DNA of 48,251 bases, from positions 1 through 48,251 of the forward strand of contig QKHZ01000102.1 in NCBI GenBank assembly GCA_003249795.1, given 5' to 3'. This document shows positions 10,118 to 32,040 of the stretch, piece by piece. Source of the DNA: a bacterium. Lineage in GTDB: Bacteria > Planctomycetota > SZUA-567. Numbering within the stretch: the first letter of the stretch is position 1; every line of letters starts with the position of its first letter. A model generated the notes under the pieces. That model was not told the origin of the DNA. It saw nothing but the letters and a program-made list of their open reading frames with translations, and did no database searches. The position numbers and the translations under genes were made by a program.

Positions 10118-12394
10118 TCAGTTGCCTGCACCCGGAAGCGGCGGAAGGCAGACGCGGAAACGAGCCACCGGACTTTCGTTTTTCACCGGTTCGACCTTTG
10201 GCGTATTCGTTGCCATTGCGGTTTGCACGGCAGATATTTCGACTTCATTTTTCGGCAAGCTGGCAGGTTTACAGGCTGCGATTTCTTCTTGAGCTACCGG
10301 TTCATTTTTACTTGGGCTGAGTGCCTGAACGTCTTGAGCCGGTGAGGATGTTTGAACTGCAGTAGGTTGTGTTTGAGCCTGAGCCTGTGCGGTTGTGGAT
10401 TCGCTGCCGATTCGTTTTGACCCGCGGCTAATGCGGATGTCAAGGCTGCTGAGAACACCCCAGAGGATGCAGCCGATAATCAAAACGACAATGAACGGGA
10501 ACGCGGATTTTTTGGCCGACCAGCGGTGGCGTAGGCGAACCGGTTGCGGTTGCACAGGCTGTTCAGTTGACGGTGCCTGTTGCGCTTGTGTTTCGGCGAT
10601 GTCCGATTCTTCCTGCAGTTGCTGCACGGCAACGACCTGCGGATTATTTGCTACCGCTTTACGGATCATCGCCTGTTCAGCAGAGACTTCTTCGGCATGC
10701 TGGATCTGGCGCGTGGTATGAACCGAGCTGACCAGCCGCGCTGCCGGGAGGATTGGTTGCGCAATCTCTTCTTCCTCAATCAACCGAGCGCGTTCAAACT
10801 CCGACTTCTGTTTGGCAGCAGTTGCGGCTTCAGCGTTCTGAGCGGCTTGGCGTGAGAGGCGTTCGCGCTCCTGACGGATGGTCTGGATTTCGCTTTCGGC
10901 TTCGTCCAGTTCAAGACGTGCTTGGCGAGCCTGTTCGAGTGCTGTATTCAGAACAGTCGTCATCTGCGATTTTGCGTCCTGATTGTGTTTCAGTTCATCC
11001 TGAAGGACTTCGAGTTCTTCGCGCAGTCGGCGGTTGTCTTTGATACTCTTCTGCAACTCTTCGATTGCTCGGTCTTTTTTCGCGCGCGTTCCCTGCAATT
11101 CGCCTTGTAATTCTGCGATACGGGTGGCGTCTTTTTCGCGGTTCTGCTTAAGCAGTTCAAGCTCTTTCATGAGTTGTGTTTTGGCAGACAGGTGTTGCGC
11201 TTCGGTTGTGATCAGCGTGTTCTGTTGTTTCTTCTGCTCGTCTTTAGCGAGTTCTATCTGGCTTTGCAGACCCAACAGTTCCGTTTCATGCGTCCGTTCG
11301 CGCTGGCGGAGAGCGTCTTGTGTTTTTTCCAGTTTTTCGCGCTCAGCGGCGAGTTCTTTCTGCAGTGCCGCAAATTCATCGCGGATGCGGGCGGCGTCTG
11401 ACTGTGACTGCGCCATCTCTGCTTTCAGGCGGTTTGCACTGACATTCATTTGCGCGTCGCGTGCGCAGGCATTGCTTTCCATCTCCTGCATGTCGGCCTG
11501 CGCTTTTTTCAGGCGAGCGCGGACGTCGCGAAGTTCAGCGGCCAGTTTGGATTTTTCTTCTTCAACGCGGCTGATTTCAGTTCCGGCGCGAGCGCGTTCG
11601 TCTTCAAGCTGTTTCTGAAATTCCTGTTCAAGGTTCTGCACGTTTTGCTTTTGGCGCGAGAGTGAGTTTTTCAGTTCCTGAATCTGCCGGCGGGCGTCGT
11701 CAACGTCTTCTAGCGCACGCAGCAGGTTCTGCTGAACCTGGTCGCGCTCATCGGCGGCAAGCCGTGCGCGTTCTTCTTGCTTTTCGCAGAGTTCGGCGAG
11801 GTGGATCGTATCCGCCCGCAGTTCTTCGAGATCTTTATGTTCGCGGCATTTTTCTCGTTCAAGTTTATACGCGAGTTCTTCCGCGCGCAGTTTCGATTTG
11901 TTTGACAGTTCCAGCGCATAGTCGCGCTCGGCGACCAGATCATCGCGGTCTTTATCCAGAGTATTCACCCGGTCCTGCCAGTAAGTCAGCGTCACTTCCG
12001 CATGGCGCAGGCAGCGGCGGGCTTCGTCCAGTTCGTGACGGATGTCGTTGACTTCGCGGCGGGCGGTGTCGACGGCGTCTTTCAGCGAGAAGTCGATAAC
12101 GTGGTTTTTCTGCATCTGTTCCTCCGCGACAGCTTCGGCACGACTGACGGCAGACTCGGCTTGTTCAGCGGCAAAACCGATAGCGTCGTCGGCGACACGG
12201 ATCTCTTCGAAGATCGCGCTTTCCAGAACGATGGAGCTATCGTCTTCCAAATCGATGACATCACTCTCCGAGTCCAGACTTTTTTCAGACGAAGGGATGC
12301 GGAAAATTCTCTCACACTGTTTGCAGCGTGCTTTTTTCCCCGCCAGTTCTTCCGAAAACTCGAATTCCTTGCCGCATTCGCAAGTGTAGTTCAT
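10118..12394 (-). CDS. zinc-ribbon, long coiled-coil, single-pass membrane protein
   Basis: Protein of 758 residues with an unusual layout. Residues 1-33 form a zinc ribbon (CEC near 5-7, CKQC near 24-27) of the type common in planctomycete-group proteins. Residues about 50-90 are acidic. From about 95 to 560 there is almost uninterrupted heptad-rich coiled coil (E/R/K/Q/L), then a Gln-rich linker. One membrane helix lies at about 632-651 (FPFIVVLIIGCILWGVLSSL), followed by a 105-residue Gln/Thr/Pro/Ser-rich tail. The basic residues before the helix (SAKK) put the zinc ribbon and coiled coil in the cytoplasm and the tail outside. It may act as a scaffold or a filament anchored at the membrane; no enzymatic domain is visible. 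It stands alone, more than 300 bases from the next gene upstream. Confidence 0.88.
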   Translation of the reverse strand: MNYTCECGKEFEFSEELAGKKARCKQCERIFRIPSSEKSLDSESDVIDLEDDSSIVLESAIFEEIRVADDAIGFAAEQAESAVSRAEAVAEEQMQKNHVIDFSLKDAVDTARREVNDIRHELDEARRCLRHAEVTLTYWQDRVNTLDKDRDDLVAERDYALELSNKSKLRAEELAYKLEREKCREHKDLEELRADTIHLAELCEKQEERARLAADERDQVQQNLLRALEDVDDARRQIQELKNSLSRQKQNVQNLEQEFQKQLEDERARAGTEISRVEEEKSKLAAELRDVRARLKKAQADMQEMESNACARDAQMNVSANRLKAEMAQSQSDAARIRDEFAALQKELAAEREKLEKTQDALRQRERTHETELLGLQSQIELAKDEQKKQQNTLITTEAQHLSAKTQLMKELELLKQNREKDATRIAELQGELQGTRAKKDRAIEELQKSIKDNRRLREELEVLQDELKHNQDAKSQMTTVLNTALEQARQARLELDEAESEIQTIRQERERLSRQAAQNAEAATAAKQKSEFERARLIEEEEIAQPILPAARLVSSVHTTRQIQHAEEVSAEQAMIRKAVANNPQVVAVQQLQEESDIAETQAQQAPSTEQPVQPQPVRLRHRWSAKKSAFPFIVVLIIGCILWGVLSSLDIRISRGSKRIGSESTTAQAQAQTQPTAVQTSSPAQDVQALSPSKNEPVAQEEIAACKPASLPKNEVEISAVQTAMATNTPKVEPVKNESPVARFRVCLPPLPGAGN

Positions 12395-12709: not shown

Positions 12710-13603
12710 TCAAGCGCGGGCTGTCCACCAGATCTTGAGGCCGTCGTAGGCGGGCGCCATCGATTCGGGCAATTCCTGACACAGGCGCTCGTGGATAAAG
12801 TCGTGATTCATGTGGGTGAAGTAGGTTTGCTCCGCACCGATTCGTCGGGCGGCGTCGATCGCGGCGTCCAGATGAAAATGGGTGGAGTGCGGCAGGTAGC
12901 GCACCGCGTCGACGATCAGGGTTTTCAGTCCTTTTAATAAGGAAAAGGTTTCGTCCGGAATTTTGCTGACATCGGAGATGTAGGCGCAGTCGCCGAAGCG
13001 GTAGCCGTAAATCGGCAAGATTCCGTGCATCACAGGCAGCGGCGTTACGCGCAAGCCGAACAAGTCGAAATCGTTTTCAACCGGATAGAGATCAACTTTC
13101 GGCAGTCCCCCGCCTTTCTGGATCGACTCCCAGATATACGCGTAGTGCTTGCGTATCCACTCCAGCGCGTTGGGTGGGCCATAAATCGGAATCGAAATCT
13201 TGTGCAGAAAGCAGAAAGGGCGAACGTCGTCGAGGCCGTGGATATGGTCGGCGTGGTTGTGGGTCACGAGTACCGCGTCCAGCCGCATGATCTTTTCGCG
13301 CAGCAGTTGCAGACGGAACTCCGGCGTCGTATCGATCACGGCGGTACGCGCGATCTGTTCGGGTTGATCGGGCTGGTTAAGCGAATCGTTTTCAGCGGAA
13401 GCGTCAGGAATCGGTTCATGCCATTGCATAAGAACACTCGAGCGCATCCGGTTGTCACGCGGATCGGTCGAGCGGCACGCCGGACATGAACAGCCGACCA
13501 TCGGAACGCCGACGCTGGTACCGGTTCCAAGAAATGTCAGCGTACCGTGGATTGCGGCGGTTACGTTGGAGTGGTGGTTTGTGTCTGCCGAACCGGTTGT
13601 CAT
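12710..13603 (-). CDS. PhnP-like metallo-beta-lactamase-fold phosphodiesterase
   Basis: Metal-dependent hydrolase of 297 residues. It has the PhnP-type N-terminus GTGTSVGVPMVGC with structural zinc cysteines C38, C40 and C43 (GCSCPAC), then the metal site H115-N-H117-A-D119-H120, and later VMHG, ISDVS and THMNHDF blocks that supply further ligands. PhnP itself hydrolyses phosphoribosyl 1,2-cyclic phosphate; family members also act on other cyclic phosphodiesters, and no other phn gene is nearby, so the substrate is open. Residues about 62-85 are a polar insert not typical of the family. The gene is 33 bases downstream of the NAD(P)HX epimerase gene and likely cotranscribed with it and pyrK. 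Confidence 0.88.
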   Translation of the reverse strand: MTTGSADTNHHSNVTAAIHGTLTFLGTGTSVGVPMVGCSCPACRSTDPRDNRMRSSVLMQWHEPIPDASAENDSLNQPDQPEQIARTAVIDTTPEFRLQLLREKIMRLDAVLVTHNHADHIHGLDDVRPFCFLHKISIPIYGPPNALEWIRKHYAYIWESIQKGGGLPKVDLYPVENDFDLFGLRVTPLPVMHGILPIYGYRFGDCAYISDVSKIPDETFSLLKGLKTLIVDAVRYLPHSTHFHLDAAIDAARRIGAEQTYFTHMNHDFIHERLCQELPESMAPAYDGLKIWWTARA

Positions 13604-13636: not shown

Positions 13637-14833
13637 TTATTTGAGAACGTCTTTGATAATTTCATTCGGACAGCCGATCGAGGCAAGAAACAGTTTTCCG
13701 CATGAGTCCGGATTTTTAAGCAGCCCTGTTTTGACTGCGGCGAAGGTGACTGTTCTGTCTGCGCGGATACTGATGCCCATCGTCTGGCCGCTGTCGCCGT
13801 TTATGCCGCTGGGGATGTCGAGCGCAAGCACCGGTATGCCGGCCTCATTGACTGCATCAATCACCTCTGCGACATTTCCTTCAACAGTTCGCGTCAGGCC
13901 GGTTCCGAAAATTCCGTCAATAACCAAAGCGAATGCGGGTAGAAGTTCAGGCAGATTGAGTTCGTTAATATTTACTGGCGTCATACCGCTGGCGCGTAAA
14001 AGCGCGAGGTTTGCCGCTGCATCTGCCGAGAGGGTTTCCGCATTTCCGCAAAAGGCGACGGTGACCGCGTATCCGCGACGGCATAAACCGCGAGCCATCG
14101 CCAAACCATCTCCGCCATTGTTGCCGGTTCCGGCGAGGATCAGGATTTTTGTTTCGCTGTTTGCTGGTTGGTGATTTTGATCAAGAAAATCGCACGCGCA
14201 TACAACTGCGCCGGTTGCGGCATTTTCCATTAACAGGACGCCGCTGAGGTTATATTCATTCATTGCAGTTTCATCGATTTTGCGCACAGCAGCAACAGAC
14301 AATGCATCCGCTTTTTCGCCATTGGGTAACGATCCGTCGGAATGAACTGCTTGGACAAAGGGATTGTTTTGAATTGAAAATCCGTCCCATTGTTCCGAGT
14401 GCAAGGGATTTAAAAACTCTGACGCGCTGATAAGAGAACTGCCGCCGGTAGTGAACCCAGCGCCGTATGCGGAGCCATCGATCACAATGCCGGTATTTGC
14501 TGCTGCGCTTGCGGCTATTCCAGTCATCACACTGGCTGCCGGAGTTTGGAGAATCGGCAGATCCATAAATCCGACGACTTCAAGAGCCTGTGCAAAGACA
14601 TCGAGCGTATGGGCGTTATAGTCATCCAAAACAATCTGCACCTGCACGCCGCAGTTAGACAGGTGACGCGCCGCGCACAATCCCGCTGCACCGGGAAGGC
14701 CGGTTGCCGCTTTGACAGAAACGGGCGGGATCGGAGTTGCAGACGTGCGCCGCAGAACCGACAGCGCGATTGCCCGTCCGGCGCGTTCTGCCTGCAGCGA
14801 CTGGGGAAGTTCAGGTGAAGTGAAATTCACCAC
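13637..14833 (-). CDS. nnrE: NAD(P)H-hydrate epimerase with a second, degenerate YjeF_N-like half
   Basis: The C-terminal half (about 181-398) is a normal YjeF_N epimerase, which repairs damaged NAD(P)HX by interconverting its epimers: GNNGGDGLAMARGL at 237-250, DGIFGTGL at 307-313, LDIPSGINGD at 338-347. The N-terminal half (about 20-150) repeats the layout in worn form: GLPGAAGLCAARHL at 45-58 in place of the GNNGGDG loop, then IVIDGSAYGAG at 116-126 in place of the DGIFGTG block. The two landmarks are offset by 192 and about 190 residues, as expected for a duplication. The ADP-dependent dehydratase domain, often fused C-terminally, is absent. The start is GTG at 14833, overlapping the end of pyrK by 7 bases, so translation is probably coupled. 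Confidence 0.88.
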   Translation of the reverse strand: MVNFTSPELPQSLQAERAGRAIALSVLRRTSATPIPPVSVKAATGLPGAAGLCAARHLSNCGVQVQIVLDDYNAHTLDVFAQALEVVGFMDLPILQTPAASVMTGIAASAAANTGIVIDGSAYGAGFTTGGSSLISASEFLNPLHSEQWDGFSIQNNPFVQAVHSDGSLPNGEKADALSVAAVRKIDETAMNEYNLSGVLLMENAATGAVVCACDFLDQNHQPANSETKILILAGTGNNGGDGLAMARGLCRRGYAVTVAFCGNAETLSADAAANLALLRASGMTPVNINELNLPELLPAFALVIDGIFGTGLTRTVEGNVAEVIDAVNEAGIPVLALDIPSGINGDSGQTMGISIRADRTVTFAAVKTGLLKNPDSCGKLFLASIGCPNEIIKDVLK

Positions 14834-15633
14834 ACCAGTTCCTTTGCATCAAAGACGGGGCCGTCTTTGCAGACTCGTTTGAAGACAAATCCGTCTTCGT
14901 TTTCCGCGGCGATTTTGGTGACGCAGCCCATGCACGCGCCGAAGCCGCACGCCATCCGCTCTTCCAGGCTTACTTGGCAACTGTAACCTTGTGCGACGCA
15001 ATATTGCGACAGGTTTCGCAGCATCGGTGCAGGACCGCATGCGAAAAAGTTCGGTGCAGGGGTTGCGCCGTCTTTGGTCAGAATCGATTCGACCGCAGCA
15101 ACGGAGTGGCCGTGAAAACCGGCGGAGCCGTCGTCTGTAGCCAGAAGCAGTTTATCCGACGCCTTTTGGAACGCGGTCTTTTCCAAAAGAAGGTCTTTAC
15201 TGCGTGCGCCGAGAACGGTGTGGACATGAACGCCTTTTTCGCGCAGAACTTTCGCTAGAAACAGCAGGCTCGGAGCCCCGCATCCGCCGCCGACCAGAAT
15301 CGCACGACTGCCTTTTCGCGGAAGCGTATAGCCGTTTCCGAGGGGCCCGAGGATAGAAACTTCCGATCCCTTTTTCAGATTCATTATGTGTTTCGTGCCT
15401 TCGCCAACGACGGCGTACAGAAAGCTGAATCCATTTTCATCGGCGTCGCTGGCTGCAAACGGTCGGCGCAAAAGCGGCATGTTGACTTCTGGATGAATGC
15501 GGAACTGGAAAAACTGTCCCGGCTTGAAGCGGCTGCCGATTGCCGGACACGACAGCGTCATTTTATAAAACCCGGATGCTGCGGGTTTGTTTGACAGGAC
15601 GGTTGCGGTTTCATCAAGAATACGTTTTGCCAT
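14827..15633 (-). CDS. pyrK: dihydroorotate dehydrogenase electron-transfer subunit PyrK
   Basis: Iron-sulfur flavoprotein that passes electrons from PyrD to NAD in pyrimidine synthesis. The start at 15633 (MAKRILDETA) has GAAGGA upstream; the open frame 69 bases further up is not supported. A ferredoxin-reductase-like FAD domain has RRPF at 56-59 and GEGTK near 77-81; the NAD domain starts at GGGCGAPSL (115-123); the [2Fe-2S] cysteines are C229, C234, C237 and C255 (MACGFGACMGC...VCKDGP), and the chain ends in the typical FDAKELVW. Length 268, normal for PyrK. The pyrD partner is not in the window. It heads a minus-strand run with the epimerase and the metallo-hydrolase. Confidence 0.93.
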   Translation of the reverse strand: MAKRILDETATVLSNKPAASGFYKMTLSCPAIGSRFKPGQFFQFRIHPEVNMPLLRRPFAASDADENGFSFLYAVVGEGTKHIMNLKKGSEVSILGPLGNGYTLPRKGSRAILVGGGCGAPSLLFLAKVLREKGVHVHTVLGARSKDLLLEKTAFQKASDKLLLATDDGSAGFHGHSVAAVESILTKDGATPAPNFFACGPAPMLRNLSQYCVAQGYSCQVSLEERMACGFGACMGCVTKIAAENEDGFVFKRVCKDGPVFDAKELVW

Positions 15634-16103
15634 TGCGGTTCCTTCGTGCTTTCCTGTTTTCTGTTCAAGCTGTATGCTGCCATGTTCATCTCGTGCATTC
15701 ACCGAGTCATCAATTTATCGAAATGCAGATGTAGGTTTTACCAGAAACCGGCGACAAGGGGAAGAACTCTCCGGTTACTGCATGGTTTCTCTCTCTGAAA
15801 AATCGCTTCGAATAGTCAAAACATTATCGGACGCAAGCCAGGATTTTTGCCGGTATGTTTGTTGGAAAAACCTGCACTGGGGAATATCCCCACACAGCCG
15901 GTGTTGTGTCGCGGTCGTCGCTCAAAATTCGCATCTATTTTATTATCAATAGTTTAAAAGATTTATCTGGGAAAAAGAAAAATGGTACAGGCGTTGTAAA
16001 AGTAGAGGCGTCAGAACGGTACCGAAAGAGCGTGAGACAGAAGTCAGCAAAATCACAAAAACAAGAGCCGGCAATAGGCCAGCCATAGACAGGAGGAATC
16101 ACA
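15634..16103. other. intergenic region between divergent genes
   Basis: About 470 bases. It contains a small palindrome TGGGGAATATCCCCA near 15880-15895 and an AT-rich stretch near 15940-15965. Short open frames here lack ribosome sites. It should hold the promoters of pyrK (minus) and of the exported coiled-coil gene (plus). No RNA gene recognised. Confidence 0.45.
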
Positions 16104-17764: not shown

Positions 17765-18679
17765 CTATCGGCACTGATATTCTGAAAAGCCGATCGCTTC
17801 AAGCGCTGTCGTAATCTTCTGTGTAATTTCTCCGGATGGTGTCAGTAGCGGCAAACGCACACCGCCGCAGTCGATGCCGATCATTTTCATCGCGACTTTC
17901 TGGGCAGCAATCGGATGAGCGCCGTGGCGGAACAGTTCGCGGATCATCGTGTGTGATTTCTGCTGCAGTTTGTTCGCTCCGTCAACATCGCCTGCGTGAA
18001 AGCGCTCAATAATGCCGGTATATAAAGGTGCGGCGAAGTTGTAGGTACTGCCAACCGCGCCGCGTGCACCGGCGATCATGGAACTCAGAAGCATTTCATC
18101 ACGTCCGAACAGCATATCGTATTTTCTGCCGTCATAGACCAGGCACTGTGAAAAATCCATCAGGTTTTCATCTGTGTATTTGATTCCGGCGAAGTTTTTG
18201 CAGCGGCTTGCGAGCGTTTCGATCAGATCGATCATGGCAAACGTAGCGCCTGTCATCATCGGCATGTGATAATAGTATACAGGAAGCTCAGGCACAACCG
18301 AAACGGCGTCAACAAAGTAGTCAGCAAGAGCTGCAACGCTGACAGCTTTGTGATAACTCGGTGCAATCAGCCCGGCCGCGGCTGCCCCGTTTTGTTGAGC
18401 GTGTTTGAGCAGGCGTTTGACATCCGGCAAGGCGTTTGTTCCGACGTGGACGATGACAGTCATTGCGGAAGGCGATTCTTTAATCCACGCCTCGGCCAGT
18501 GTCATGCGCTCGGCCAGATCCATCGATTGTCCTTCTCCGTTACTGCCGCAGACAAAAACACCGCGCACGCCGTTTCGCGCCAGCATTTCCGCATAAGGTC
18601 CGACCATAGGCAAATTAAGATTTCCGTTGTTATCAAACGGGGTAAACGGTGCAGCAACAAGTCCTTCAATTTTATTCAT
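17765..18679 (-). CDS. nanA: N-acetylneuraminate lyase
   Basis: Aldolase of the DapA/NanA barrel family that would split sialic acid into N-acetylmannosamine and pyruvate in the cytoplasm. The 304-residue length is typical. The pyruvate-binding loop GSNGEG is at 45-50, the Schiff-base lysine is K167 in GIKYTDENL, and the catalytic tyrosine Y137 sits in YYYHMP, which resembles the sialate-lyase form better than dihydrodipicolinate synthase. It is the last gene of a minus-strand operon, 48 bases after the sialidase and headed by a GntR regulator, which supports the sialic-acid role. ManNAc kinase and epimerase (nanK, nanE) and a transporter are not in the window. Confidence 0.9.
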   Translation of the reverse strand: MNKIEGLVAAPFTPFDNNGNLNLPMVGPYAEMLARNGVRGVFVCGSNGEGQSMDLAERMTLAEAWIKESPSAMTVIVHVGTNALPDVKRLLKHAQQNGAAAAGLIAPSYHKAVSVAALADYFVDAVSVVPELPVYYYHMPMMTGATFAMIDLIETLASRCKNFAGIKYTDENLMDFSQCLVYDGRKYDMLFGRDEMLLSSMIAGARGAVGSTYNFAAPLYTGIIERFHAGDVDGANKLQQKSHTMIRELFRHGAHPIAAQKVAMKMIGIDCGGVRLPLLTPSGEITQKITTALEAIGFSEYQCR

Positions 18680-18727
18680 CTTTATCTCGCTTCATAGGTT
18701 TGTCAGTTTGAAAATGTCTTCTAAGTT

Positions 18728-19780
18728 TTAAAGAAGAAAATCGGATAGTTGAACCGAATAGCCCCGGATCTGGCCTTTGTCCATGTGGTCGTCGACGATG
18801 TAGTTGACGATATAGATTTCGCCGTCGTCAAACTGTACCCATCCGGAGTATCCTGTGTCACTTTTTGACGAGCGGTCGAAGTCGATCGGAAGAATCCGTG
18901 CTGACGATTCATTCCGCGCCTGTGCCAGGACTGACTCGTCATTGGTCAAAGCGGCAAACAGGTTTTGTGTCCAGGAACCGAGCCAGCCTTTACCGCCCTG
19001 CATGTAGCGGTAGGTGATCAGAATCCGCCCGTCCTGCAATTTTCCGCTAACCGGTCGATGGCAACCGTTGAGCGGAAAGTCGATAATTTCGCCCCACGTC
19101 TCTCCGTTGTCGTTTGAAATCGTTTTTTTGCAGTCCCAGCCTTTGCCGGAATTTTCGCGCATGAAAGCGACGAGCGTTTTGTCGTTGACAGGAAGAATCG
19201 AGACTTCGCAGAGGTTCAGCCCTTCTTGTTTGCCGACGGTAATCTGCTTGCTCCATGTTTTTCCGTGATCGTCGGAGTAATGAAGAAACTGGGTCAGGTA
19301 TCCGTCTTCAGGATAATGGGCGGAAATGATCCAGCGTCCGCAGTCAAGTTCGAGCAGTTTGTCCGGAACAATACCCATCAGCGGTGTCGGCATCGGTTCA
19401 GACCAGCTTGCACCATCGTCTTCAGAAAAATAAAGAAACGTCTGTGAGTGTTCAGCGCCTGTTTTTTCGCTGCCTGCCGGACATTTGTCAACAAGCATGC
19501 AAAGGCGTCCGTCTTTAAGCTGGACGATGCGCGCGCAATTATAATAGTAATCCAGTCCTCGTGTGCTTTCTGTGATAGGCGTTGCATTACTCCACGTGCG
19601 TCCGCGGTCGGTTGATGTTGTCATCATGATGCGTGTATAGTCGCGGTTGCCGTGATGGGTGCATTCGCTGAAAACGCAGACCAGTTTGCCGGATTTCGTC
19701 AGCGCGATATCAGGCCAGGCCTGATAAAATTCGGGACTTTTGCTGATCGGGAATTTTAGAAGCATCGGTAACCTTTTCAT
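18728..19780 (-). CDS. sialidase-family protein, six-bladed propeller, no signal peptide
   Basis: Predicted exo-sialidase or related BNR-propeller hydrolase, 350 residues. Four Asp boxes are visible: STDRGRTWS (56-64), SEDDGASWS (119-127), SDDHGKTWS (169-177), SNDNGETWG (222-230), at the spacing of consecutive blades. Candidate active-site arginines lie in RDYTR, MREN and HRPVSG, and a GYSGWVQF block closes the last blade. The classical FRIP motif is not obvious (the region reads FYQAWPDIA). No secretion signal is seen from either possible start (19780, or 19765 which is better spaced from AAAAGG), implying a cytoplasmic enzyme acting on imported sialosides. It lies between the GntR regulator and nanA. 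Whether it is a true sialidase or a relative acting on another acidic sugar cannot be settled from sequence alone. Confidence 0.86.
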   Translation of the reverse strand: MKRLPMLLKFPISKSPEFYQAWPDIALTKSGKLVCVFSECTHHGNRDYTRIMMTTSTDRGRTWSNATPITESTRGLDYYYNCARIVQLKDGRLCMLVDKCPAGSEKTGAEHSQTFLYFSEDDGASWSEPMPTPLMGIVPDKLLELDCGRWIISAHYPEDGYLTQFLHYSDDHGKTWSKQITVGKQEGLNLCEVSILPVNDKTLVAFMRENSGKGWDCKKTISNDNGETWGEIIDFPLNGCHRPVSGKLQDGRILITYRYMQGGKGWLGSWTQNLFAALTNDESVLAQARNESSARILPIDFDRSSKSDTGYSGWVQFDDGEIYIVNYIVDDHMDKGQIRGYSVQLSDFLL

Positions 19781-29375: not shown

Positions 29376-31799
29376 TCAGCTGCGGGTGACCCAAAGGTGG
29401 GAGAAAAAGCCAGGGGCGCCTTTTTCAGCCACCCAGTCATACAGTCGCGCCTTTTCCATCGGATTGATCCACACGCCGATCGAATCCCACTGCATGCAAA
29501 GCTCCGGCAGTTCCACAGAGCACAGCGCACGCGGATCCCACCGGCCTTCGACGCCAACCGGCACGACCCAGTTCGGTGCCAGACAGATATCCATCCGCTT
29601 CAGTGAATCGGCATCGTATACATGGATACGCTGGACAAGGTCGCGCGCTTCTGCATCAAAGGCATGAATATGTAGCATGTGCTTACCGCTCTTGCCTTTG
29701 AGACCTTTCAGACAAATGTTCAGGTGACGCCACATGACCCAGCCGCCGATGCCCCAGTCCCACGCTTGCGGATAGTCAGCTGCAAGCTCCTGAAAATCAT
29801 ATCCGTCTGCGCATTCGATATTGTCAAAACAGTGGCCGAGGGTTTTGGTGATGCTGCCGCCGTGGGGAAGGAAGAGTCCCGGATGGACTTCGATCACGGT
29901 TTGGCCTGCTTCGGGGCGCTGCTGTTTAAACCATGTGTTCATCTTTTCTTTTTCACAAAGTCCTGCGGCTTGGCCTACGGCCAGATCCCAGCGGCTCTTA
30001 TCAGTCAACGGGCCGAAGGTCTGGTAACCCGGTGTCGGAACTTTCGTGTCTGGGGCGATTTTGCGGATCACATCTGACGTTTTTCGGCGCAGAATGGTTT
30101 CAGCTTCTTCCACGCCTTCAACAATAAGCTGGTCTGCAGTAACACCCCACAGGCGATGCCAGCAGGCGAGTTTGGTGCTGTCAAATGAAAGTGCGACAGG
30201 TTCAGTTCCGACAGTTTTGCCGTCATTGGTATAATTCGTTCCGCACAGGCTTTCAAGTCGCGCAACCGGTCGGGCATTCAGCGACTGGGGCGAATCGAGA
30301 ACTGGGTCATAAACGGGTGGATTGACTTTAACCTGTACGGTAAACGCGTCCGGCACTTGCGAAGCCAGAACCGTGAATGGCTGTTCTTCAAAGAAAAAAG
30401 TTTCCGCTGCCAGAAGCTCGGACCAGCGGCGTGTGCAGGATAGGCCTGTTTCTGTTGCAGTCACGGTTAACTCAAGCGCGCTTTCTCCTGCCGGAATTTT
30501 TCCTTCAGCCATGACCGCGCCGCCGGTGCCTGCCGGATGCGGAACGGTCTTGAATGCCCAGCCGTCAGTGCCGCTGATGGTAAACGTGCCCTTGCCCAAG
30601 CCAAGAGCGCCCCACAACATCAGTTTCACCTTGCGTTCTGCGCCGCTGTTTTTGATCGTTGCGATAGTTTTGACATTGCCGTTGTCTTCTGTTGTCTGAA
30701 GGGATACGGTACAGTCGGAGAAGTCGGTTGATTCTGGTGCTGATCCGTCAGGCTTGAATGCTGGGTAGTCCCATGTTTTTTCATAATCATACAGCCGCCG
30801 CGGCAAAGCGTCCGGTGCCTGCCAGATGGTCTGGTTATTCAGGCTTTCGTCGACGATGACATCGGGATAGATGCCGGCGCGGTTACCGACGTGGAATCCC
30901 GGCATCTCGCCGCGCCAGTATGTAACCTGCCTGCACAGGCCGTCATGTTTGCGGCTGATTTCGGCCCACTGTTGTCCTGAGCCGACTTCGAGTTTGCCTT
31001 CGCGTTTGCGCGCAGCTAACCATTCAAGGGCGCGGCGGTTGTGGTCGTAACATTTTTCAGTGAAAAAGAACTGGAGGTTGATCTGGAAAAATTTGCTTTC
31101 GCCTGTCAGTTCTGTCTGGTCAATCCAGTCTTGTGCAATCGACAGAAATGGGATCGGTTGCTGGGTTGGCTCCAAGCTGCGGTCTGCGGCTAGAGCGTTG
31201 AGCGGGCACCACGGGCCTTCACTCCAGTGCGAGAGGCAGACCATCGGGTTGCGAAGTTCCATGCTCATGATCATCAGCGGATCAGAGCGTTTCTCCGGAT
31301 TTTCTGGTTTGCGGAAATCTTCGTCACTGACAAAGTATGGCGCAAGCGGGGAGCCGTAGTGTGCGATACTCCAGCCGCCGTCTTCGATCACAGTCGGTGC
31401 GCAGAAGCCGAGGATGAATTTGACGCCGAGCTTGCGGCAGGCTGCAACGAAGGTGTTACCGGGGGTGTAGGTGTTGACGGCGGTCATCTCTCCCATACCG
31501 AGAGCTTCATATCTGTTTTTTGCGATGGTGATGAGCCGGATGCATTCGTCTTCGCTGTAGCGCCACCAGTTGGAGTCACGGCAGTTTTCCGGATCGATCT
31601 GTTGCGGGTAGATGGTCGGCGCGACGATCCCGCCGGCGTCTTTGATTTTCTTCAGCCACGCGGTATGGCGCTCAAGCTGGGCGAAAGAGGCGCAGGTGTC
31701 GCACACAAGCCCGAGGCCGAGAAGGAAGGAAACCTCTTTGGGCAGATTGTCGCCGGTCTGGTCGAACTGGGCGTAGATATTGCAGAAGGTCGTACTCAT
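29376..31799 (-). CDS. large uncharacterised protein, probably glycan-related
   Basis: Protein of 807 residues. The start at 31799 (MSTTFCNIYAQFDQTG) follows AAGGAT at 6 bases; the frame is open further upstream without support. Residues about 1-340 alternate strand and helix in barrel fashion and resemble carbohydrate-active barrels of the polysaccharide-deacetylase type (DAGGIVAPTIYPQQ, TPGNTFVAACRKLGVKFILGF, and conserved-looking Trp/Glu/His). About 380-560 look like beta-sandwich domains, and the C-terminal 200 residues form a Trp-rich domain. No signal peptide. No CAZy family is assigned from memory. It lies between the SGNH hydrolase and an AraC regulator on the same strand and has its own terminator. 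Confidence 0.8.
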   Translation of the reverse strand: MSTTFCNIYAQFDQTGDNLPKEVSFLLGLGLVCDTCASFAQLERHTAWLKKIKDAGGIVAPTIYPQQIDPENCRDSNWWRYSEDECIRLITIAKNRYEALGMGEMTAVNTYTPGNTFVAACRKLGVKFILGFCAPTVIEDGGWSIAHYGSPLAPYFVSDEDFRKPENPEKRSDPLMIMSMELRNPMVCLSHWSEGPWCPLNALAADRSLEPTQQPIPFLSIAQDWIDQTELTGESKFFQINLQFFFTEKCYDHNRRALEWLAARKREGKLEVGSGQQWAEISRKHDGLCRQVTYWRGEMPGFHVGNRAGIYPDVIVDESLNNQTIWQAPDALPRRLYDYEKTWDYPAFKPDGSAPESTDFSDCTVSLQTTEDNGNVKTIATIKNSGAERKVKLMLWGALGLGKGTFTISGTDGWAFKTVPHPAGTGGAVMAEGKIPAGESALELTVTATETGLSCTRRWSELLAAETFFFEEQPFTVLASQVPDAFTVQVKVNPPVYDPVLDSPQSLNARPVARLESLCGTNYTNDGKTVGTEPVALSFDSTKLACWHRLWGVTADQLIVEGVEEAETILRRKTSDVIRKIAPDTKVPTPGYQTFGPLTDKSRWDLAVGQAAGLCEKEKMNTWFKQQRPEAGQTVIEVHPGLFLPHGGSITKTLGHCFDNIECADGYDFQELAADYPQAWDWGIGGWVMWRHLNICLKGLKGKSGKHMLHIHAFDAEARDLVQRIHVYDADSLKRMDICLAPNWVVPVGVEGRWDPRALCSVELPELCMQWDSIGVWINPMEKARLYDWVAEKGAPGFFSHLWVTRS

Positions 31800-32040
31800 G
31801 GGATCCTTTCCATAGCTTTTAATGTGGATGGCTTTTGGCGCGTGTCGTTTCGGAAGACGAAAACTGTCTCTGTAGTATACAAGCCTGCGCTGTCTGTCGC
31901 ACGGATCAGGCTGGGTTATTTTCACGAATAAATCACGTATTTTGCATGGAAATAGATAGATTTTTTCATTATGTCACAGACATGTTTCTTTTTGGGTGAC
32001 AATCAGTGAAATCCTGCTGGTTTAAGTTCGGTTCGGAAAA

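Follow-up and report, generated by a model that had tools for sequence, protein, structure and literature searches.

NAXE contains one YjeF_N domain per chain, and AIBP dimerises. The YjeF_N domain of Edc3 is described as forming a strong dimer (PMC6778109). According to PMC5938422, epimerase and dehydratase are fused in 97% of the 1,248 genomes that have both genes. The same source reports that NAD(P)HX epimers equilibrate spontaneously, with a half-time of 40 min, and its authors argue for a moonlighting function of the epimerase. The need for the epimerase and its possible second function are a matter of debate (PMC5938422).

The window analysed here, a stretch of 48,251 nucleotides of planctomycete DNA, encodes on its reverse strand (13637-14833) a protein of 398 amino acids with two YjeF_N domains: residues ~176-398 form an intact one (NAD(P)HX epimerase), and ahead of it, at residues ~8-165, lies a degenerate one. 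As far as these searches show, this tandem is a new architecture of a known family, conserved across a class. Searches of an open-access library gave no paper on a tandem YjeF_N protein, as judged by title and the start of the abstract.

Organisation of the tandem YjeF_N gene

The gene starts with GTG at 14833, while a second GTG at 14830 provides an alternative start that would yield 397 residues; the sequence AAGGA at 14840-14844 lies 6 and 9 nucleotides ahead of the two candidate codons. All features of the window given below are on the reverse strand. The open reading frame and its landmarks lie where an earlier note on this DNA, made from the letters alone, had placed them. In the N half they are GLPGAAGLCAARHL (residues 45-58; 14660-14701), which is the remnant of the GNNGGDG loop together with the helix that follows it, and IVIDGSAYGAG (residues 116-126; 14456-14488), which aligns as the counterpart of VIDGIFGTG; in the C half they are GNNGGDG (residues 237-243; 14105-14125) and DGIFGTG (residues 306-312). 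The near-constant offset between the halves that the note had proposed is exactly 192 residues for the pair R56/R248, as it stated, and measures 187 for E16/E203 and D119/D306, against its figure of about 190. The degenerate domain is likewise present, extending from residue ~8 to 165 rather than from 20 to 170. An assembly artefact or a frame-shift fusion behind the tandem is ruled out, since the tandem recurs in 21 genomes.

The C-terminal epimerase domain

The catalytic C-terminal YjeF_N domain occupies residues 176-398 (13640-14308; PF03853 match at 13724-14233). Taken alone, the C half scores 160.6 bits against PF03853 (cut-off 24.9) and 143.2 bits against TIGR00197 (cut-off 88.6), and a PF03853 scan of the whole protein matched both halves, the C half at 160.9 bits and the N half at 27.8 bits. 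Comparison of the C half with TM0922 gave an E-value of 1.2e-31 in sequence and, for the structural model, a Z-score of 31.5 and rmsd of 1.5 over 205 residues with 37% identity. Residues G237, N238, N239, G241, D242, D306, D339 and K368 are invariant in the 18 C halves aligned, and positions 240 and 243 of the loop vary only between G and A; in the window the GNNGGDG loop is intact. In the DIPSG motif (residues 339-343; 13805-13819), D339 aligns with D147 of TM0922 (chain index 159 minus a 12-residue offset to author numbering), described as the invariant Asp (PMC4059234). K368 (13730-13732), a Lys in 18/18 C halves, is by its position the probable counterpart of K192 in E. coli YjeF, a conserved Lys whose change is reported to lower epimerase activity by 95% or more (PMC5938422). 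By family and residue criteria, the C half belongs with ordinary NAD(P)HX epimerase domains and is predicted to be active.

The N-terminal domain is a degenerate YjeF_N domain

The degenerate N-terminal domain, as cut for profile construction, covers residues 8-172 (14318-14812), with a PF03853 match over residues 15-120 (14474-14791). The N half of the window alone scores 28.6 bits against PF03853 (E-value of 1.7e-6), above the curated cut-off of 24.9, and in the Pfam scan no family besides YjeF_N passed its own cut-off for either the N half or the whole protein. When 18 N halves were scanned singly, 10 matched PF03853 at E ≤ 0.1, and two other Pfam families each matched one member. A profile of the 18 N halves aligned to a profile of the 18 C halves with 95.6% probability and an E-value of 1.1e-8. 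The direct pairwise similarity of the two halves of the window is, taken alone, modest: their local alignment reaches a score of 57, whereas shuffled sequences average 33.5 (SD 5.7) and attain that score in 6 of 2000 cases. Against the sequences of solved structures, the N-half profile gave a weak match to 1jzt (YjeF_N; E-value of 0.00074) and one to AIBP (0.086), with a histone demethylase ranking between the two (0.027, ~30 residues).

The N half was predicted and searched alone because comparison of the whole model ranked alanine dehydrogenase-type domains best for this half. Residues 1-175 in isolation, modelled from 5 alignment rows against 11 for the full model, form a Rossmann domain (pLDDT of 70.3, pTM of 0.72). 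The nine best VIA-align matches of this model are all YjeF_N structures (Z-scores of 14.7-11.6 and rmsd of 2.9-4.0 over 133-151 residues) and comprise AIBP, four TM0922 entries, yeast YNL200c, an H. pylori protein and two Edc3 entries. The best single match is 2dg2 (NAXE/AIBP, chain of 233 residues; Z-score of 14.7 and rmsd of 3.8 over 150 residues), and the first match after the YjeF_N entries is alanine dehydrogenase (Z-score of 10.2 and rmsd of 2.6 over 118 residues). Foldseek concurs with this ranking for the first four ranks. The N half is thus predicted to be Rossmann-like, as the earlier note had anticipated, with YjeF_N Z-scores of 11.6-14.7 versus at most 10.2 for all other listed chains.

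The two-domain model has a pTM of 0.90 and a mean pLDDT of 89.1, a mean that is carried by the C half. Within it, ten-residue blocks of the N half have mean pLDDT values from 52 to 96, averaging ~81 (70.3 alone), and the blocks around residues 71-80, 101-110 and 121-130 stay weak, with means of 52-68; a strand is present at residues 116-120. The gain in confidence over the isolated model is weak evidence of packing, because the fall on isolation peaks at the cut end (residues 151-175) and the isolated model was built from fewer rows.

Pfam, profile-profile and isolated-model evidence agree that the protein carries a second copy of YjeF_N, which upholds the central claim of the note, and the homology of the N half to the YjeF_N domain is well supported by sequence profiles and by the predicted fold. 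Chance likeness of the halves is ruled out by the Pfam cut-off, the profile-profile match, the shuffles and the matches of the isolated model.

Residues lost and retained in the N half

The GNNGGDG loop is present in none of the 18 N halves. At the catalytic Asp position, D is found in 4/18, and the catalytic Lys position falls outside the shared columns, so fewer than 60% of N halves have any residue there. The N half is apparently catalytically dead; the loop is gone from 18/18 N halves and catalytic Asp and Lys are unconserved, in agreement with its description as inactivated-looking.

Other positions are strongly conserved. In the segment E16 to R20 (14774-14788), E16, the counterpart of E203, is E in 17/18 N halves, and R20 is R in 18/18, a new residue at a position where C halves mostly have V, Y or I. 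R56, the counterpart of R248, is also R in 18/18, and the invariance of R20 and R56 covers rows from six families. W149 (14387-14389) is Trp in 11/18 N halves; these 11 are the members of the order to which the window belongs, and the remaining seven are gapped in that column. The counterparts of the loop glycines are retained in 6/18 (first Gly), 11/18 (second) and 16/18 (third), and the loops of deep-branching N halves resemble GxGxxGA (GPGPTGA in L075, GRGAAGA in L073). A group within the window's own family (L064 and L066-L071) has a shortened degenerate domain, of 99 residues in L071, in which R20, R56 and W149 are kept.

Distribution of the tandem

YjeF_N is carried by 22 of the 29 sampled genomes of the window's class. 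The N-half profile finds the tandem in 21 of these 22, so that the architecture recurs in related genomes, a point the note had left to be checked. Three of the 21 were absent from the profile itself and match it with E-values of 1.3e-23, 3.9e-31 and 7.7e-21. Of the 21 genomes found with the N-half profile, 9 show the second copy with PF03853; single-domain searches can therefore miss degenerate partners. The two halves share an open frame in 20 of the 21 tandem genomes; in the remaining genome, G015, the N half is read in a different frame next to a run of N, probably an assembly gap. The one exception in the class is G026 (locus L081), whose single-domain YjeF_N groups with an outside planctomycete sequence (S_L020; 98/92) and may, because of this grouping, be a replacement by transfer. 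The seven class genomes without any YjeF_N hit (G002, G004, G009, G011, G014, G016 and G027) are 61-92% complete; both sampled members of genus g5 are among them, one with a completeness of 92%. In a search of named relative genomes, the tandem was recognisable at 4 of 11 loci (DeMMO6_1, SZUA-421, Zod_Metabat.533 and Nc350_bin156); an earlier scan of named genomes with the single protein as query had found no relatives.

No same-frame tandem was found outside the class by PF03853 over 392 Planctomycetota genomes (the 29 class genomes included). Thirteen outside-class genomes with two PF03853 matches were rejected as candidates, the matches being one domain split into two or lying in separate places. 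The N-half profile is the better test for the tandem, because PF03853 misses many degenerate copies even within the class. Run over 294 genomes, class included, with up to 12 candidates scored per genome, it matched 160 at E ≤ 0.01. Outside the class, four genomes had two matches, none of them in one frame. In 10/10 outside genomes checked, which include the strongest outside matches and the four with two matches, the best match falls on an ordinary YjeF_N domain, and G044 and G064 have a few weaker matches (E-value of 6e-4 or worse) away from the YjeF_N domain. The profile score alone separates the groups imperfectly, since the strongest outside match (G093, E-value of 1.3e-14) narrowly outscores the weakest of the tandem proteins (G012, 4.3e-14, with a shortened N half); position in the protein does separate them. 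Within the sampled Planctomycetota, the tandem is restricted to one class.

Origin and rate of evolution

A 54-row tree built on 129 shared columns puts all 18 N halves together behind a single branch (99/97). Among the N halves, and again among the C halves, 11 genomes separate from the other 7, and these are the same genomes in both cases. Such a pattern fits one event that predates the divergence of the sampled class, after which the two halves were inherited together. The N halves sit on long branches, apart from all C halves and single-domain rows, and the AU test (p of 0.419) allows one clade of C halves without establishing it. With N branches of this length, and with some long branches joining, self-duplication and fusion with an older paralog both fit the tree. 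The tandem duplication proposed in the note therefore stands as regards a homologous second copy, while a copy of the protein's own domain and an older paralog fit the tree alike. N-half paths are a median of 3.2 times longer than the matching C-half paths; the median is taken over 151 of the 153 pairs, after leaving out the two whose C path was ≤ 0.2.

Genomic context

Directly upstream is a gene for a PyrK-type FAD/2Fe-2S protein (14827-15702), which overlaps the YjeF start with its stop codon, and directly downstream, 33 nucleotides beyond the YjeF gene end, begins a gene for a metallo-beta-lactamase-fold hydrolase (12710-13603; Pfam/NCBIfam and tblastn). From their spacing, the three genes look like one transcription unit. 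A tblastn search over 20 relative loci found a pyrK relative in nine (close upstream in eight and ~2 kb away in L073) and a metallo-beta-lactamase relative in seven; both neighbours occur together in the window and in L062, L074, L076, L078, L079 and L080 (families f1, f5 and f6). The neighbourhood looks old, since the nine pyrK loci span families f1, f3, f4, f5 and f6. In the window's own family, the pyrK neighbour is absent from the examined stretch in eight of the ten located members (window included). The window's genome carries pyrD on a different contig.

The earlier note was right that a dehydratase domain is missing from the tandem gene, but a PF01256 protein is encoded elsewhere in the same genome, by a separate gene on another contig (G000:C77:17896-18657). 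In this phylum, having no fused dehydratase seems to be the usual state. All five family f5 tandem proteins (L074-L078) have a hydrophobic segment ahead of the N half, with a best 19-residue hydropathy of 2.7-3.2, versus at most 1.9 in the other 16 proteins; such a helix before the degenerate domain suggests membrane anchoring.

Several other genes of the window were noted. Next to the YjeF operon, 10118-12394 encodes a 758-residue protein for which no Pfam family passes its cut-off; visual inspection suggests a zinc-ribbon at its N terminus, then a long coiled coil, and a hydrophobic segment at the C terminus. At 17765-19780 a DHDPS-family gene, whose best NCBIfam model is N-acetylneuraminate lyase, below cut-off, adjoins a BNR-repeat (sialidase-like) gene, possibly a pair for sialic acid use. 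An open reading frame of 849 residues at 29376-31925 has no Pfam match at E ≤ 0.01.

Possible roles of the degenerate domain

Retention of the pairing throughout the class suggests that it is probably useful, and we give about an even chance to the dead N half serving as a covalent structural partner that replaces one subunit of a YjeF_N dimer. The N half would pack on the C half as a covalent pseudo-subunit, in place of one protomer of the YjeF_N homodimer, and one polypeptide would form an asymmetric dimer with a single active site. The dead half would support the live one, epimerisation would be carried out by the C half and the separate PF01256 dehydratase would complete NAD(P)HX repair; in family f5, membrane tethering of the enzyme would be added by the hydrophobic helix that precedes the N half. 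Consistent with such a partnership are the pTM of 0.90 of the two-domain model, the rise in N-half pLDDT from 70.3 alone to ~81 within it, the use of YjeF_N as dimerisation domain in Edc3 (PMC6778109), and the retention of the tandem in 21/22 YjeF_N-bearing class genomes with R20 and R56 in 18/18 and E16 in 17/18 N halves. However, pTM and pLDDT are indirect, and truncation alone could cause the fall at residues 151-175; two C halves might form a dimer all the same, and G026 has a single-domain enzyme within the class, though maybe as a replacement. The shrunken N half of one group and an approximately threefold faster evolution would also fit slow decay. A reading in which the N half has lost all function and is slowly decaying after a duplication would be in line with the rate, these deletions and the recognition by Pfam of just 10/18 N halves at E ≤ 0.1. 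It nonetheless has a small probability, given in-frame retention in 20/22 YjeF_N-bearing class genomes, with a 21st beside a run of N, and the invariance of two Arg residues across rows drawn from six families.

Unlikely, in our estimate, is a regulatory or ligand-sensing domain in which the Gly-rich loop with E16, R20 and R56 would bind a nucleotide or metabolite and tune the C half. The GxGxxGA-like loops of the deep branches (L075 and L073), the new invariant R20 close to the retained E16, and the report that Edc3, a YjeF_N protein with another role, binds NAD-related compounds (PMC4059234) argue for it, while the uneven retention of the loop glycines (6/18, 11/18 and 16/18) and the loss of much of the domain from the shortest members argue against. 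A tether or docking module that would place the epimerase beside the PyrK flavoprotein or the membrane is distinctly unlikely: a pyrK relative lies close upstream in 8/20 relative loci, with a ninth ~2 kb off, and overlaps the gene in the window, and all five f5 proteins examined have the hydrophobic helix ahead of the N half, yet 8/10 located members of the window's family are without a pyrK neighbour in the examined stretch and 0/10 have the helix, and gene order alone does not demonstrate contact. Sensing and docking may also be taken together, the dead domain acting as an NAD(P)(H) or metabolite sensor, or as a docking module, that would couple the epimerase to its PyrK neighbour or, in one family, to the membrane; we regard this as quite unlikely, and were it true, NAD(P)H would be repaired where it is used and a pseudoenzyme-enzyme tandem would operate class-wide in metabolite repair. 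It is very improbable that the N half is an unrelated Rossmann domain merely resembling YjeF_N. The whole-model comparison did match it to the NAD domains of alanine dehydrogenase and transhydrogenase (Z-scores of 10-11), and the rmsd to alanine dehydrogenase (2.6 over 118 residues) is lower than to YjeF_N (2.9-4.0 over 133-151 residues), but the isolated model ranks nine YjeF_N entries first by Z-score (11.6-14.7 versus at most 10.2) and the sequence profiles also point to YjeF_N, which together contradict such an origin. The lineage, having long kept a dead copy joined to the live one, offers a natural experiment for asking whether pairing is required for YjeF_N function.

Comparison with known YjeF_N proteins

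The single-domain YjeF_N proteins of other Planctomycetota share the catalytic domain of the tandem protein, in frames of mostly ~214-300 amino acids among the matches listed, and differ from it in that the degenerate N-terminal copy was not found there. The C-terminal YjeF_N domain of Edc3 offers a parallel in its dimerisation role, as described in PMC6778109. Unlike the tandem protein, Edc3 acts in eukaryotic mRNA decapping and also contains an LSm domain and a disordered stretch, and it is reported to keep the invariant Asp as D443 (PMC4059234), whereas the tandem N halves do not conserve the Asp. NAXE/AIBP resembles the tandem protein as a standalone epimerase domain without a fused dehydratase, and it is also the best match of the isolated N half. 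TM0922, a bifunctional NAD(P)HX epimerase-dehydratase (Nnr), has the same domain as the C half, with the catalytic Asp aligned. YjeF_N is the sole domain over cut-off in the tandem protein, which sets it apart from a bifunctional Nnr: where Nnr fuses YjeF_N to a dehydratase, the tandem protein fuses YjeF_N to an apparently dead YjeF_N.
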